The translations under genes were made by a program, and so were the position numbers. A model generated the notes under the pieces. It had not been told where the DNA came from. It saw nothing but the letters and a program-made list of their open reading frames with translations, and made no database searches. From Prauserella marina (GTDB lineage Bacteria > Actinomycetota > Actinomycetes > Mycobacteriales > Pseudonocardiaceae), in contig NZ_CP016353.1 in NCBI RefSeq assembly GCF_002240355.1, positions 5,433,001 to 5,497,000 on the forward strand: a DNA stretch of 64,000 nucleotides, read 5' to 3'. Shown piece by piece: positions 46,918 through 58,554 of this stretch (the stretch's first letter is position 1; each line of letters opens with the position of its first letter).

Positions 46918-48138
46918 GTGGGTACTACGACAGCGCCGCGGATGAGCGCCGCGATCCGCAATCCCGAGTTCCGGGCGCTGTGGGTTGCCGAAGCGCAGTC
47001 CGTCCTCGGCGACCACCTCACGACGGTGGCACTCGCGATCATGGTCTACGACCGCACCGGCTCCGCGCTGTGGGCGGCCATCGTCTACGCCCTCACCTTT
47101 CTCCCCGCGCTGGCCGGTGGGCTGGGGCTGTCACAGATCGCCGACCGCTACCCGAGGCGCACGGTGCTCGTCGTCGCGGCGACGATTCAGGCAGGGCTCG
47201 TCGCGCTCATGGCGATTCCGGGAACACCGCTCGCACTGCTGTGTGTGCTCGTCGTGTTCGTCAGACTCGTCGGCGCGCCCGTCAACGCCGCGCAGAACGC
47301 ACTGACCCGAGAAGTCTTCACCGACGACGAGCTCTACCTGCGCAGCCAGGATCTGCGAGGGATCACGTCCAACATCGCGATCCTCGTCGGGCTCGGTGGT
47401 GGCGGCCTGCTCGTCACGGCCGTAGGCCCCTCGTGGGCACTCGCGCTCGACGCGGTCAGCTTCCTCGTCGCCGCGCTCGTCGTCAGATTGCTCGTCCGCA
47501 GGCGCCCCGCGGCGGGCGCTCCCGACGACGCGTGGTTCGGCGCCGTCCAATGGGTCTTCGGTCAGCGCAGGCTCAGAGTGCTGCTCGCGTTCTCGTGGCT
47601 CGTCGGGCTCGCCGTCATCCCGGAAGGACTCGCGGCACCGCTCGCCCACCAGATCGGCGCCGCCGATCAGGCCGTCGGCTGGTTGCTCGCGGCAGACCCC
47701 GTCGGCTTCATCATCGGCACCTTCATCCTCTCCCGCTTCGTCTCGGCGGAAAACCGGCGCAGGGTCATGGGCGCGCTCGCGACGGCCGCCTCGGCGTTCC
47801 TCATCGCGTTCGCGATAGAGCCGAGTCTGCCGGTCGCACTGGTGCTGTTGGCACTCGCCGGTGCGGCGGGTGCATACATCATCACCGTGGGCGCAACGTT
47901 CATCACCTGGGTGCCCAACGAGTTACGCGGCGGAGCGGGCGGTGTCTACCGCACCGGATTGCGGGTGGCGCAGGGCATCGGCGTCGCGCTGGGCGGAGTC
48001 CTCGCGGATCTGGTCGGGTCGGCGACCACCGCGATCGCGATAGCCGGTATCGCGGGCGTCGTGTGCACGATCCCGGTCGCATTGTCGTGGACCAAGGTTC
48101 GCACCGCACAGGAAACTGCCACTCCGGGGCTCGCATGA
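46918..48138 (+). CDS. MFS transporter (12-segment, enterobactin-exporter-like)
   Basis: 406 residues, about 12 membrane segments. NPEFRALWVAEAQSVLGDHLTTVALAIMVYDRTGSALWAAIVYALTFLPALAGGLGLSQIADRYPRR is the first third with motif A (IADRYPRR). The family exports siderophores, drugs or peptides. GTG 46918 has AGGGTGA and GAG upstream. It is convergent with the hexapeptide array that begins 40 bases after its stop, so it might export that peptide; this is speculation by position only. Confidence 0.85.
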   Translation: MGTTTAPRMSAAIRNPEFRALWVAEAQSVLGDHLTTVALAIMVYDRTGSALWAAIVYALTFLPALAGGLGLSQIADRYPRRTVLVVAATIQAGLVALMAIPGTPLALLCVLVVFVRLVGAPVNAAQNALTREVFTDDELYLRSQDLRGITSNIAILVGLGGGGLLVTAVGPSWALALDAVSFLVAALVVRLLVRRRPAAGAPDDAWFGAVQWVFGQRRLRVLLAFSWLVGLAVIPEGLAAPLAHQIGAADQAVGWLLAADPVGFIIGTFILSRFVSAENRRRVMGALATAASAFLIAFAIEPSLPVALVLLALAGAAGAYIITVGATFITWVPNELRGGAGGVYRTGLRVAQGIGVALGGVLADLVGSATTAIAIAGIAGVVCTIPVALSWTKVRTAQETATPGLA

Positions 48139-48178: not shown

Positions 48179-48199
48179 TCAGAAGTCACGGTCGGACAC
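48179..48199 (-). CDS. Mini-ORF 5: hexapeptide MSDRDF
   Basis: GTG start, five sense codons, TGA. AGGAGG (48208-48213) lies 8 bases upstream, the best of the five ribosome sites. The peptide equals mini-ORF 3, although the two lie 158 bases apart in otherwise unrelated spacer. It is the last of the array; the convergent MFS gene ends 40 bases further on, so no downstream gene could use it as a leader. Confidence 0.65.
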   Translation of the reverse strand: MSDRDF

Positions 48200-48264
48200 T
48201 GCCGACACCTCCTGGTCGCGATTAATCAGAAATGACTGGGTGTATACAGAATGACAGCGCGTAC

Positions 48265-48285
48265 TCAGAAATCGCGGTCGGTCAC
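48265..48285 (-). CDS. Mini-ORF 4: hexapeptide MTDRDF
   Basis: GTG start and TGA stop; GAGGAG (48293-48298) upstream. The Arg codon is CGC and the second Asp GAT, while mini-ORFs 3 and 5 use CGT and GAC: synonymous change with the peptide kept. A worn copy ending in HF-stop (about 48227-48245) separates it from mini-ORF 5. Confidence 0.65.
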   Translation of the reverse strand: MTDRDF

Positions 48286-48336
48286 TTTACTACTCCTCTG
48301 GCATCAGGGGGACAGTGGTCTCAGGGAGCGACTGAC

Positions 48337-48357
48337 TCAGAAGTCACGGTCCGACAC
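48337..48357 (-). CDS. Mini-ORF 3: hexapeptide MSDRDF
   Basis: GTG start and TGA stop; AAGGAGG (48364-48370) 6 bases upstream. The Ser codon is TCG here and TCC in mini-ORF 5. Start-to-start distance to mini-ORF 4 is 72 bases. Confidence 0.65.
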   Translation of the reverse strand: MSDRDF

Positions 48358-48404
48358 GGGAAACCTCCTTCGGTGGCGCTGATGAATAGGACTGTGACAA
48401 CGGC

Positions 48405-48425
48405 TCAGAAATCACGGTCAGCCAC
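48405..48425 (-). CDS. Mini-ORF 2: hexapeptide MADRDF
   Basis: GTG start and TGA stop; GGAGG (48432-48436) 6 bases upstream. Second Asp codon is GAT. Start-to-start distance to mini-ORF 3 is 68 bases. Confidence 0.65.
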   Translation of the reverse strand: MADRDF

Positions 48426-48474
48426 GAGGCACCTCCACGACGAACGCAATCAACCAACACTTGTTTGTTCTAGA

Positions 48475-48495
48475 TCAGAAGTTACGGCCAGACAA
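48475..48495 (-). CDS. Mini-ORF 1: hexapeptide MSGRNF
   Basis: TTG start and TGA stop; GGAGG (48506-48510) 10 bases upstream. It is the most divergent member (Asp to Gly and Asp to Asn) and the first in transcription order. Start-to-start distance to mini-ORF 2 is 70 bases. Confidence 0.55.
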   Translation of the reverse strand: MSGRNF

Positions 48496-48602
48496 GAGGT
48501 GAACACCTCCGATCGCTTTCCGGCCGATGTGTCGGGCAACCTTACACACCGGGCCCGGCGTCCTCGCCTACACGAAAGTTCTGGCGCGGTGAGATGATAC
48601 CC

Positions 48603-48627
48603 CGTGCGAGAGGAAAGACCTCTCGCA
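48603..48627 (+). other. Perfect 10-bp hairpin upstream of the GGDEF gene
   Basis: GTGCGAGAGG-AAAGA-CCTCTCGCAC. It lies in the 329-base divergent space between the mini-ORF array (minus) and the GGDEF gene (plus, start 48825). It may be a leader structure or an attenuator; no riboswitch pattern was recognised. Confidence 0.5.
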
Positions 48628-48824
48628 CGCGAACGGCCGGTGGCCGGCTTGGCAAGGGAACTACAGAGCTGCTGGAGGTTCGGCGAGTGCCGCTGACGCC
48701 ACACGGCCGACCGCCACCGTCGTCTCCCGCCCCTGGTGGGACGGCACATCACGGCGCCGAAGCCCCCGAGGAACGCCCCGAGAATTCGCGGCGGGACGAC
48801 AGCACGACAGCAGGGGGTGAGCCC

Positions 48825-50102
48825 GTGAACGCGACGAGACGTCACCCGAGACACCCCCGCGACTGGGCGTTGTGGCGCAGGCCGAAAAGTTTCATCGCCT
48901 TCCTGCTCACCATGGAAGCGTTGTCGCTCATCGGGTTTACCCTTGCCTTCGCGAGGTCGTCGACACCCACCGCGACCGACTGGATGCGATTTGCCATCCT
49001 CGCCGCCGGCGCGACAGTCCATATCCAACTAACCCGGCGCCAGGAAGAACGAAGGCGTAACCGCACCAAGACCGTTCTCATCGACCTCATCGCGGTATGG
49101 GTCTTCCCCGCGATTCTCGTTCTACCAGCGCCACTGGTCGTCTTGCTCGTGCTGCTCACCCGCGTTCAACGGTGGTTCACCGCGCGCAGGCCAGCACACA
49201 ACTTCGTGTTTTCAGCGATTTCCCACAGTCTGGCCGCCGCACTCGCGCAAATGACGTATGTCTCACTGGGACCGCACGACTGGCTTTCGTTGAGTGGCTG
49301 GGGATCGCTCCGCGAATTCGGCTTCATTCTGCTCGCCGCGATTGTCTATGAAGGCGTACAGGTCGTGTACGTCGGCGGGATTCTCACGCTGTCCTCGCCC
49401 GACCCGACCGTGCGGACCGTTCTGGGAAGCAAGGCGGACAACCTGCTTGAGGCGATCACGACGGGCCTCGGCGCGATCACCGCCGTCCTGCTTGTCACGA
49501 TGCCGCCGACCGTGGCGATCATGGCCGTCGTCACCGTCGTGTTCAACCGGCTCGCCGAACTCGACCAATTGCAGGACGACGTCGTCACCGATTCGAAAAC
49601 CGGTCTGCTCAACATGCGGGGCTGGTCCGAATCCGCGGAGCGGGCACTGAGCAGGGTGGGCAGAGCCGACGGCAATCTCGCCATGCTGATGATCGACCTC
49701 GACCACTTCAAGTGGATCAACGACACCTTCGGCCATCCGGCTGGCGACGACGTGCTCATCTCGGTCGCCAAGGTGCTCGGTGAGGTCACGCGGCCCGCGG
49801 ACATCGTCGGCAGATTCGGCGGCGAGGAATTCCTCGTACTGCTGCCCGACGCCGACGCGGCGGCAGCGGAGATGGCCGCGGAACGCATGCGCGACACCAT
49901 CGCGAAACTGCACATCGACACCACCGACAAGCGCGGAGAGGAAACCACCATCACCGAAAGGACGACCTCGATCGGCGTCGCCGTCTATCCGCGACACGCC
50001 AGCACCCTCCAGGGCCTTGTCCAGGCCGCCGACGCCGCCGTCTACGAAGCGAAAGAACACGGACGCAACCAAGTGCGCTTCGCGCCGTCTTTGAACCAGT
50101 AG
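48825..50102 (+). CDS. Membrane GGDEF diguanylate cyclase
   Basis: 425 residues. About six membrane segments in the first 230 residues (FIAFLLTMEALSLIGFTLAFA, LIAVWVFPAILVLPAPLVVLLVLL and others) are followed by a GGDEF domain: TDSKTGLLNMRGW, LMIDLDHFKWINDTFGHPAGDDVL, VGRFGGEEFLVLLPDA and TTSIGVAVYP. The active-site motif is intact (GGEEF), so it should make cyclic di-GMP from two GTP. No EAL domain follows. GTG 48825 has AGGGGGTGA upstream. Divergent from the hexapeptide array. Confidence 0.9.
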   Translation: MNATRRHPRHPRDWALWRRPKSFIAFLLTMEALSLIGFTLAFARSSTPTATDWMRFAILAAGATVHIQLTRRQEERRRNRTKTVLIDLIAVWVFPAILVLPAPLVVLLVLLTRVQRWFTARRPAHNFVFSAISHSLAAALAQMTYVSLGPHDWLSLSGWGSLREFGFILLAAIVYEGVQVVYVGGILTLSSPDPTVRTVLGSKADNLLEAITTGLGAITAVLLVTMPPTVAIMAVVTVVFNRLAELDQLQDDVVTDSKTGLLNMRGWSESAERALSRVGRADGNLAMLMIDLDHFKWINDTFGHPAGDDVLISVAKVLGEVTRPADIVGRFGGEEFLVLLPDADAAAAEMAAERMRDTIAKLHIDTTDKRGEETTITERTTSIGVAVYPRHASTLQGLVQAADAAVYEAKEHGRNQVRFAPSLNQ

Positions 50103-50173
50103 CCTTGGCACGAACCCGAACATCGGGGGTTACCCCGATGTTCCTTCCCCCGCACGCTGACACCCTGGAGACC

Positions 50174-52354
50174 ATGACCGCGGCGACCGAGGAGAATGCC
50201 GCGCCCGCGGCCAGACGTGGGCGCGGCATTCTCGGCACATCGGGATGGGTCGCGCTACTCGTGCTCGTGGTGACCGCGTTCGGTTTCGTGGCTTCCCGTT
50301 CGGAGCCCGCGGCCTACACCGGCCCGCGCGACGACGACGTCGTCGCGGCACAGCGCGCCGTCGACGCCCTGCTCACCCCTGGGCCTCGTCCAGAGGCGCT
50401 CTCCTTGCTTCCCTCCGACTTCACCTCGGTCACCGGCGTTGAACCAGGCCAGTCCGCCGCGATGGACGGCACGGTAAGGGCTGTCCACGTCGACGGCGGG
50501 TGCTCGACCCCATGGGGCGACGACGACACCCGATGGGATTTCGGCACTCCGTGCCGCGCGCACGACCTCGGTTACGACCTGCTGCGGTACGCGGAAAAGA
50601 AAGGACAGCCGCTCCCCCCGGAGACGAGGCGAGCGCTTGACGACCGGCTCTCCGCCGACATGCATGCCACGTGCGCGATCAACCCCCGGGATTCCGAGGG
50701 CATGTGCGAGACGGTCGCCGACCTCTACTCGGCTGGGATCGTCGTGAACTCGTGGCACCAGCGATGGGGTCCTCCGGTCGGCGAACCGATCGTGCCGATA
50801 CTCGCAGGCGTCGCGGTCATCGGTTTCCTGCTGTCGTTCCGGCTGCGCGGCTGGCTGTTGCTGCGAAGGAGCAGACCACGTCCCGCACCGGCGCCGAAGG
50901 CCGCGCCGGTGCCAGGCCGCAGGTGGACGTTGCTCGGGGTCGCCAGTATCTCGCTGCTCGTACTCGGCGAATCCGCCGTGGCGCTCGCGAAGTGGGCCGG
51001 TGCGAGTGAAAGCTGGCTCTGGCCGTTCACCTGGCTGGCGCAACTCGCCTTCGTCTTCTTCTTCGCGGGCGGGCACGCCAACTCGGCGGGCTGGCTCGCC
51101 GTCGTGCGCTCCGGCGGTGGCTATCGCGAATACCTCGTGCACAGGGCGAGCTGGTTACTGCGGCTCACCATGGTGTTCGCCGTCGTGGCCTTCGCGGTGC
51201 CGACGGCTCTCGAACTGCTCAAGATCCCCTCGGGCACAACGGAAACCGTCATCAGGATCGCGCTCCATCCACTGTGGCTACTCGGCGTCTACGTACTCGC
51301 CACGGCCGCGACTCCCGCATTGCTCGCCGTGCACAGGAAAGCGCCGGTATCCGGACTTTTCGGCTTGTTCGGTCTGCTGGTCGTCGCCGAGATCGGTGCG
51401 ATCCGCACCGGCTCGCACGTGCTCGGCGCCGTCGCGGGCCTCGGCCTCGCGCTACTGGCGCAACAGTTGGCCTTCGCCAACGCCGACCGGGTCCGCATGC
51501 GCAGGTGGGCGTTGGCCGCCGTCGCGGCGATGGGCACCGCGGGTCTCGTCACCGGAGTCGCGCTCGGCGCCTTCCCACTGACCATGCTCGGCGCGCCGGA
51601 CGCCTCACCAACGCTGGCAGGTCCGACGCTCCCCGTCCTTTTGCTCGGCATCGTCCAGCTCAGCCTGCTCGGTCTCGTGCGAGAACCACTGTCCGCGCTG
51701 GCGAGAACACCCTTCATGCTGCGGGTCGCGGCTTTCGCCTCACGGGCTCCGATGACCCTGTACCTGATCTTCCTCGCGGCCATGCTGCTGCTGGTCGCAC
51801 TGGTCTACCTGCCGGCCCGGCTCGGTGACGGCGCGGCCTGGTTGCTGCGCCCGCAGCCGTTGCTCGCGCTGGCGTTGCTCGCGGTTCCGGCCGCCGCGGT
51901 CTTCTGGTGGTTCGAACGACACCTCGGTCACCACCCGCCCTCGCCGCCGACCGGGCCCGGGCACTCGGGAAGGTTCGACAAGACGCTCGCCTACGCGGCG
52001 ACGGCCGCGGGCATCGGGTTCGCCACCATCGGCGTTTTCGGATTCGCCCTCACCACATTCGGTGGCTCCCAGGACTCGATCCTCACCGGCGTCGCGCTCG
52101 ATCCCATTCAGAGCCTGGTGCATCTGCTGCTGGGGATGTCCCTGTTGCACACGGTACGAACGGGTGCGAGCAACGCTCCCAGCACCTGGCTACTCACCGC
52201 TGTCGCTTCCGTACCGCCGTTACTTTCCGCAACCAGCGGGTCCTCGGTGGACGCGATCGGCCTGAGCGTTCACGGCGTCACGGCGGTCCTGGCCATTGGC
52301 TTGGTGCTGGCTACGGCCTGGACGACGCGCATGACTACCCGCTACGCCACGTGA
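50174..52354 (+). CDS. Prokaryotic phospholipase A2 domain fused to a polytopic membrane protein
   Basis: 726 residues. After one membrane anchor comes an outside domain with DGGCSTPWGDDDTRWDFGTPCRAHDLGYDLLRYA and DRLSADMHATCAIN, the CxxHDxxY active-site helix and paired Cys of bacterial PLA2. A further 10-12 membrane segments follow: a middle block like DUF418/acyltransferase-type proteins and a last part (LDPIQSLVHLLLGMSLLHTV) like DUF4383. The set suggests lipid cleavage or remodelling at the outer face of the membrane. ATG 50174 has GGAG close by; ATG 50138 is an alternative. Confidence 0.7.
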   Translation: MTAATEENAAPAARRGRGILGTSGWVALLVLVVTAFGFVASRSEPAAYTGPRDDDVVAAQRAVDALLTPGPRPEALSLLPSDFTSVTGVEPGQSAAMDGTVRAVHVDGGCSTPWGDDDTRWDFGTPCRAHDLGYDLLRYAEKKGQPLPPETRRALDDRLSADMHATCAINPRDSEGMCETVADLYSAGIVVNSWHQRWGPPVGEPIVPILAGVAVIGFLLSFRLRGWLLLRRSRPRPAPAPKAAPVPGRRWTLLGVASISLLVLGESAVALAKWAGASESWLWPFTWLAQLAFVFFFAGGHANSAGWLAVVRSGGGYREYLVHRASWLLRLTMVFAVVAFAVPTALELLKIPSGTTETVIRIALHPLWLLGVYVLATAATPALLAVHRKAPVSGLFGLFGLLVVAEIGAIRTGSHVLGAVAGLGLALLAQQLAFANADRVRMRRWALAAVAAMGTAGLVTGVALGAFPLTMLGAPDASPTLAGPTLPVLLLGIVQLSLLGLVREPLSALARTPFMLRVAAFASRAPMTLYLIFLAAMLLLVALVYLPARLGDGAAWLLRPQPLLALALLAVPAAAVFWWFERHLGHHPPSPPTGPGHSGRFDKTLAYAATAAGIGFATIGVFGFALTTFGGSQDSILTGVALDPIQSLVHLLLGMSLLHTVRTGASNAPSTWLLTAVASVPPLLSATSGSSVDAIGLSVHGVTAVLAIGLVLATAWTTRMTTRYAT

Positions 52355-58480: not shown

Positions 58481-58554
58481 GGGCCCGTAGCCCAATTGGC
58501 AGAGGCACACGGTTTAGGTCCGTGCCAGTGTCGGTTCGAGTCCGACCGGGCCCA
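58481..58554 (+). tRNA. tRNA with anticodon TAG (decodes CUA, Leu) but short variable loop
   Basis: Cloverleaf by eye: acceptor GGGCCCG/CGGGCCC with A73 (58554); D arm GCC...GGC with AATTGGCAGA; anticodon arm CACGG-TTTAGGT-CCGTG, anticodon TAG at 58515-58517; T arm GTCGG-TTCGAGT-CCGAC. The variable loop is only CCAGT, class I, whereas leucine tRNAs normally have a long variable arm. CCA is not encoded. The D arm is of the 3-bp leucine type. A hairpin terminator lies 66 bases downstream. Confidence 0.85.

Follow-up and report, generated by a model that had tools for sequence, protein, structure and literature searches.

What is the role of genes only six codons long, repeated in tandem between a transporter gene and a cyclase gene? 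The question is raised by a locus of Prauserella marina, within a stretch of 64,000 nucleotides that we call the window. Each unit of the array (48179-48495, minus strand; Table 1) consists of a start, five codons and a TGA and is preceded by a GGAG or GGAGG ribosome site, and the units follow one another at intervals of 70, 68, 72 and 86 bases. A sequence-only reading had described these five hexapeptide mini-ORFs with their own ribosome sites. We found the same coordinates and sites again, as well as the 40 bases that separate the last unit from the stop (48138) of the convergent MFS gene. As that reading argued, the array is not a leader of a downstream gene in the window, since the next gene is convergent. 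Its "worn sixth copy" near 48230 did not hold up: the place is just an ATTTCTGA stretch, and in same-genus relatives no unit was seen by eye in that spacer. Elsewhere in its own genome, neither of the patterns applied has a match: one gave four exact matches and the other five, all inside the array.

Table 1. Positions of the array units and associated features in the window.
Feature	Positions	Strand	Description
Unit 1	48475..48495	-	TTG start, MSGRNF, TGA
Unit 2	48405..48425	-	GTG start, MADRDF, TGA
Unit 3	48337..48357	-	GTG start, MSDRDF, TGA
Unit 4	48265..48285	-	GTG start, MTDRDF, TGA
Unit 5	48179..48199	-	GTG start, MSDRDF, TGA
Promoter-like element TATCATCTCA	48590..48599	-	TATCAT type, ~100 bases before unit 1; putative role
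Membrane diguanylate cyclase	48825..50102	+	GGEEF site, probable receptor; Pfam GGDEF 1.5e-43
N-terminal sensor domain	48834..49583	+	~8 membrane helices; cyclase part co-diversifying with the peptide
MFS transporter	46918..48138	+	EntS/H+ antiporter-like, candidate exporter; Pfam MFS_1 2.6e-28

Six neighbours in the window were scanned with Pfam (AMP-binding, SDR, MFS, GGDEF, PLA2-like and LCP). The array is directed away from the divergent GGDEF gene, whose translation contains both GGEEF and the upstream RxxD. This cyclase probably starts near the GTG at 48825, whereas the listed ORF opens at 48594. The MFS protein matches the NCBIfam models TIGR00900 (1.5e-33) and EntS (3.3e-20), in both cases under the cut-offs of those models. 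The nearest named relatives are Prauserella, with P. muralis 83% identical in the cyclase sensor domain. The sequence-only reading had pointed to the MFS and GGDEF genes as neighbours of interest, and both are indeed linked to the array in relatives, but it missed the membrane domain of the GGDEF protein as the likely partner. Beyond the cyclase, positions 50105-52354 encode a protein of 749 residues in which a phospholipase-A2-like region (Pfam, 5e-08) precedes a long, membrane-rich part, and this PLA2-like gene adjoins the cyclase in many relatives. A tRNA gene (Rfam RF00005) lies at 58481-58554.

The array is widely conserved. Typed units occupy the corresponding place in 71 of 72 named relatives, with 1-11 per locus, divergent from a membrane GGDEF cyclase; in the 72nd (L259), the assembly is interrupted by a gap of 100 N, 32 bases ahead of the sensor match, and beyond the gap there is no unit. 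In 54/72 loci, the region upstream of the GGDEF gene has at least two matching mini-ORFs on the array strand. The opposite strand of this region has such repeated mini-ORFs in 0/72 loci, the remaining locus sequence in no case (both strands, 1.13 Mb of strand in total), and mononucleotide-shuffled regions in 0/720. Of 390 genomes of the family, 45 have units by our first pattern and none by the reversed pattern. A wider pattern matched 140 of the 390 genomes, in 22 of 46 genera, with single control matches in 15 genomes, so some of the single matches among the 140 are due to chance. Nearly all of the 40 loci that were compared have the array next to the same neighbours, and a lone match without these neighbours (L064) is probably a chance one. 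Thus, the repeated units that the sequence-only reading proposed to look for in related genomes do recur, with frame and peptide kept.

Is it the peptide that is conserved? Within arrays, residues 3-6 differ 385 times synonymously (834 sites) and 5 times non-synonymously (3474 sites), a pN/pS of 0.003. This comparison drew on 220 units of the window and the 72 named loci, restricted to those with R at residue 4 and D/E/A at residue 5, which excludes unit 1 of the window, unit 1 of P. muralis and five-residue units. Residues 3 and 6, which are not subject to the filter, show 119 synonymous and 4 non-synonymous codon differences in 718 comparisons. Starts (ATG, GTG, TTG) and stops (TGA, TAG, TAA) interchange between units as well. 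The earlier suspicion of selection on the peptide, based on synonymous variation, is borne out by these counts (385 vs 5), which demonstrate at the level of sequence that selection acts on the translated product.

A likely partner for the peptide emerges from a comparison of 13 closely related Amycolatopsis loci, typed by the last peptide residue as F, G/A or L. Type F comprises A. rifamycinica, A. pretoriensis and three others (one carries an F and a W unit), type G/A comprises A. vancoresmycina, A. bullii, A. iheyensis and two others (one with a C unit), and type L comprises A. vastitatis, A. eburnea and A. sp. MtRt-6. In this clade, which is our main basis and was picked after its distances had been seen, not beforehand, sensors of one type lie 0.02-0.13 apart (23 pairs) and those of different types 0.18-0.27 (55 pairs). 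Neither the catalytic domain of the same protein (0.00-0.05 within and 0.02-0.05 between types) nor the MFS protein (0.02-0.08 within and 0.01-0.08 between) follows type, and the distances of the SDR (0.01-0.06), AMP-binding (0.03-0.09) and PLA2-like (0.04-0.14) proteins are independent of it; overall, flanking proteins are 0-14% different whatever the type. The trees agree with the distances. The sensor tree requires two type changes, the minimum (only the L branch is starred; the F and G/A branches, with support of 89/98 and 89/90, are not), and the tree of flanking proteins requires five, with each type as a clade rejected (AU p 0.0003, 0.0008 and 0.0012).

The same boundary can be seen in the DNA. 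Measured in windows of 250 bases, loci of different type are 60-89% identical over array and sensor and mostly 87-98% on either side, and loci of one type are 74-99% identical over array and sensor; a stretch ~1-2 kb beyond the sensor, between the cyclase and the PLA2-like gene, is variable in all pairs regardless of type. These profiles delimit the exchanged block as array plus sensor, and the distances establish, as far as sequence can, that peptide and cyclase sensor co-diversify. Because array and sensor diverge by type while the flanks do not, the pattern is that of a signal-receptor block under diversifying exchange. Since the two form one DNA block, peptide changes could ride along with a sensor swap. 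Type-specific residues fall at 51 of the 250 sensor positions and, in the predicted topology, are densest in outer loop 1 (4/6), with 4/12 in outer loop 2, 7/24 in each of helices 1 and 6, and 6/18 in one inner loop.

Other comparisons vary in what they add. A second genus, from another order, has the sensor in 12/12 genomes and repeats the Amycolatopsis trend with one exception. In five pairs that set MRDNNWN against MRDNTWT, the sensor distance is 0.30-0.35 at a catalytic distance of 0.15-0.21, and in pairs sharing MRDNTWT or MRDTTWS the sensor is at most 0.05 above the catalytic part, and often below it. A second paralogue of this genus has MRGNSWD in all six loci, with sensors at 0.01-0.14 and catalytic parts at 0.04-0.17. 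The exception (L385, MRDNTWS) shows little or no excess (sensor 0.29-0.34, catalytic 0.26-0.34). Likewise, Prauserella loci with D and with G at residue 3 show no sensor excess (0.14-0.20 between them, 0.03-0.21 among G loci), and neither, over MFS or catalytic part, do MSSRDW and MSSRDF in three Amycolatopsis loci. Some loci mix last residues (A and G in two, G and C in one, F and W in one), and their sensors are near those of their own type. A permutation over all 71 typed loci gave a sensor excess of 0.09 after catalytic distance (0/500), a value confounded by phylogeny, as are the wider Amycolatopsis, clade-2 and REA comparisons. We also considered that an N-terminal RDW motif in the cyclase itself might mimic the peptide, and dropped the idea when no co-variation was seen by eye.

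The sensor has no Pfam family at threshold and no solved relative by sequence (best E 0.1). It is modeled with about eight helices (pLDDT 79.8). A Foldseek search with the model gave ECF S-components, ThiT and RibU, at a non-significant E of 0.43-0.66 (probability 0.84-0.93 for ThiT chains). These components, which have a substrate-binding fold of six helices, bind small ligands in the membrane, and the sensor model resembles them only weakly and non-significantly.

Given these observations, we consider it likely that the peptides are the cognate ligands of the divergent membrane cyclase, probably exported pheromones exchanged as pherotype blocks. Each mini-ORF, with its own ribosome site, would yield a leaderless hexapeptide, and several copies would raise the peptide dose. 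The multi-helix sensor domain would recognize the peptide, and recognition would alter c-di-GMP synthesis by the attached GGDEF domain. Most likely, the peptide acts between cells, in which case the linked MFS protein would be the exporter, and the peptide types would be signaling types ("pherotypes") swapped between species as blocks of array and sensor. Expression, export, binding, the sign of the c-di-GMP effect and the cellular output are the parts of this scheme that we infer. Among the roles that the sequence-only reading had listed, a secreted signal is thus kept as the likeliest, with export presumed and with a co-diversifying receptor partner that the reading had missed; translation tuning, formyl-peptide release and a RiPP found no positive support in this analysis.

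Export by the MFS protein is suggested by linkage and by rearranged loci in which the MFS gene is still close to the array. An MFS gene lies beside the array, convergent to it, in 66/72 named loci, and in a few other lineages (g5, g27) it is co-directional. With a loose mini-ORF pattern, an MFS gene was present in the stretch for 120/148 sensor genes with mini-ORFs and for 7/35 without, a count in which loci are related and overlapping rather than independent, some flagged mini-ORFs are clearly spurious, and an MFS gene could be missed since stretches are short. In the 13 Amycolatopsis loci, the MFS protein does not co-diversify with the peptide. The array and the cyclase may also be apart. 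Three arrays lack an adjoining cyclase (L073, L080, L092); one of these genomes has a close sensor on another contig, and the other two (82-83% complete) have no match. In two loci of lineage g27 (L186, L208), a single MRNRDF unit lies upstream of a co-directional MFS gene with no adjoining cyclase detected, in genomes that hold 9 and 7 sensor genes elsewhere. In Saccharomonospora sp. CUA-673 (L067/L309), the array is kept and the cyclase match is split over two frames, by decay or sequencing error.

Could the peptide instead stay inside the cell? It might serve as an intracellular ligand or subunit of the cyclase that is never exported, and either report translation capacity or set basal activity. 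A six-residue peptide without a secretion signal, complete once it is translated, would suit such a role, as would the several arrays that have no MFS gene nearby. However, a private ligand would have no obvious reason to diversify, whereas repeated type switching in close species fits communication systems under diversifying selection, and type-specific residues occur in the predicted outer loops (4/6 and 4/12), though the inner loop varies too (6/18). We therefore regard an intracellular ligand as unlikely.

It is less probable still that the mini-ORFs encode the core peptides of a minimal natural product, for which the MFS protein would be the exporter and the cyclase a linked regulator or a component of self-protection. 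A tiny leaderless ORF with an MFS gene does recall microcin C, and in part the biarylitides, but the six scanned neighbours include no P450 or other tailoring enzyme of such systems, many arrays in other lineages had no SDR or AMP-binding gene detected next to them, and co-diversification is with the sensor. A function at the level of RNA or ribosome (a ribosome-site decoy, an attenuator or an antisense RNA) would make sense of strong ribosome sites in series and of transcription directed at the 3' end of the MFS gene. Yet codons vary synonymously while the peptide is constant, arrays lie on the strand opposite GGDEF, the array is retained where the MFS gene is absent or co-directional, and Rfam has no match at the array at gathering threshold, which together make this reading very improbable. 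Finally, the 24-base direct repeats, regularly spaced across the array, could be imagined as operator or iteron-like sites in DNA, but conservation falls on ribosome site, start, stop and the codons, whose third bases are free, and units of different peptide sequence share one anatomy, which leaves this explanation almost no credence.

The preferred reading, peptides as pheromones of the adjoining cyclase, recalls several known systems. In the ComQXPA and Agr pherotype systems, the signal gene lies beside the receptor gene, and the signal diversifies in step with the receptor's sensor domain and is exchanged with it as one block. Similarly, a dedicated peptide gene, here for a putative signal, is linked to a receptor-candidate gene in 71/72 named loci, and peptide type and sensor co-diversify, except for D/G in Prauserella and L385. 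Unlike in those systems, there is no precursor leader, the signal genes are often many and in tandem, no ComQ- or AgrB-like gene is among the six scanned window neighbours, and the receptor candidate is a diguanylate cyclase (GGDEF) rather than a histidine kinase with response regulator. The locus is therefore pherotype-like and not a member of either system, since leader, processing enzyme (among the scanned neighbours) and histidine kinase are all missing. Membrane-sensor diguanylate cyclases are known, and here too a membrane sensor precedes a GGDEF domain with GGEEF and RxxD; what differs is that the sensor falls into no Pfam family at threshold and that a genetically encoded peptide goes with it. 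Unlike a translation attenuator or leader peptide, the array has no co-directional regulated gene directly downstream in the window.

Among systems with very short peptide genes, microcin C has the heptapeptide MccA, the MFS exporter MccC and the peptide-adenylating MccB, and biarylitides are another group that occurs in actinomycetes. The array shares with microcin C a leaderless, very short peptide ORF with a linked MFS gene, here a presumptive peptide transporter, but no ThiF-type peptide-adenylating enzyme is among the six scanned neighbours, the AMP-binding neighbour is acyl-CoA-ligase-like and of a different family from MccB, and the last residue is not constrained to Asn. Biarylitides are described as minimal RiPPs with five-residue precursors (PMC13417212). 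As with biarylitides, the gene has about 18-21 bases and is of a sort missed by automatic annotation; unlike in biarylitides, the cross-linking P450 is absent among the six scanned neighbours, and the peptides are often tandem and receptor-linked. With the enzymes of both systems absent from those neighbours, the array belongs to neither. The earlier statement that no such system has been described agrees with the open-licence papers, as far as their accessible parts go, in which we found no description of such a peptide-cyclase system.

How widespread is the peptide family? The motif x-[DG]-R-[DN]-F, proposed from the window alone, fits the window units and fails as a definition of the family, which is far more varied. 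In relatives, the last residue is F, W, L, A, G, C, S, N or H, with Y, Q and M in few or single cases, and other orders have MRxxxW(x) peptides. Upstream of cyclase orthologues without a pattern match we found MSSRDF (10 units, L183), MSDRAW, MSDRDW and MVERDW. A reading of the family as x-[DG]-R-D-F, confined to Pseudonocardiaceae, was accordingly rejected as an artefact of the pattern, given the peptides upstream of cyclase orthologues and paralogues. The largest arrays have 23 units (L171, mostly MRSRDW) and 16 units (L173, of which 15 are MSRDW), and eight loci of lineage g5 have MRNRAW arrays of 6 to 15 units. Across the family, ORFs encode 5-9 residues without a leader. A phylum scan with an early pattern gave one single match among 395 other genomes, a negative that is uninformative on MRxxxW-type peptides because the pattern itself was too narrow.

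Paralogous cyclases can have peptides of their own. In one genome (G006), these are MSDRAW (x4), MANRDS/MRNRDS (x3) and MCSRDN/MRSRDN/MGSRDN (x6), and in another (G011) MVERDW/MRVERDW, MRDRGN (x3), MRTREH (x3) and perhaps MRDREL. Such genomes show at the level of sequence that peptide and cyclase are linked and that a single genome can hold several different pairs of them. A recognizable mini-ORF is missing from many paralogous cyclases: among 36 sensor genes placed, 8 have at least two like mini-ORFs, 11 are without any short ORF, and the remainder are single or doubtful, single-copy assignments being less secure than repeated ones. A sensor-domain profile had matches in 22 of 118 genomes sampled across the class, the window's own included, and 11 of the 29 loci from these matches have at least two like mini-ORFs (e.g., MRDNTWT x8, MRDNNWN x8, MRHTSWS x2). 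Seven loci of family f103 (L220-L223, L225, L228, L231) have the same sensor family with no repeated mini-ORF upstream, and the ligand of their cyclase may be encoded elsewhere or be of another kind. On a plasmid of Pseudonocardia sp. DSM 110487, MRNHNW (x3) lies beside a cyclase, with no gene listed there in an incomplete gene table. It is tempting to generalize to a system that spans the actinomycete class, in which leaderless, often tandem peptides of 5-9 residues would be exported as pheromones and sensed directly by membrane diguanylate cyclases. One genome would have several private channels (three pairs in G006), and species would trade pherotype blocks; we lean slightly toward this wider proposition.

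If the preferred reading is true, these would be a family of the smallest signal genes known to us, overlooked by gene finders, and peptide signals would feed straight into c-di-GMP. In streptomycetes, c-di-GMP is tied to development and natural-product control, according to BldD work (PMC4151990, PMC7026642). The system could give access to the silent biosynthetic clusters of Amycolatopsis and its relatives. It would also supply a small peptide-receptor pair whose specificity seems to depend on one or two residues, and a new case in which to ask why many signal types are maintained in bacteria.

Some features around the array may bear on its regulation. The motif TATCATC[CTA][CT][AG] occurs within 260 nt upstream of the first unit in 43/71 named loci, at a distance of 70-133 nt in the 30 loci displayed, and a BldD-like box upstream of the first unit was found in only 2/71. 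Directly upstream of the TATCAT element of the window lies a perfect 10-base inverted repeat (GTGCGAGAGG/CCTCTCGCAC, 48604-48613 and 48619-48628), which is possibly an operator or terminator. Judged by eye, the ribosome site of unit 1 (48496-48509, minus strand) might form a stem with a CACCTC close to it (GAGGTG..CACCTC in the window, GGAG..CTCC in relatives), which suggests that the first ORF may be regulated by a hairpin. The first units are also odd in sequence. In the window (MSGRNF) and in P. muralis (MSGCDF), they retain the G type of other Prauserella, minus one core residue, and the remaining units of both arrays are of type D. Unit 1 of the window, like that of P. muralis, is probably a decayed older copy of the G type, left behind by a type switch.
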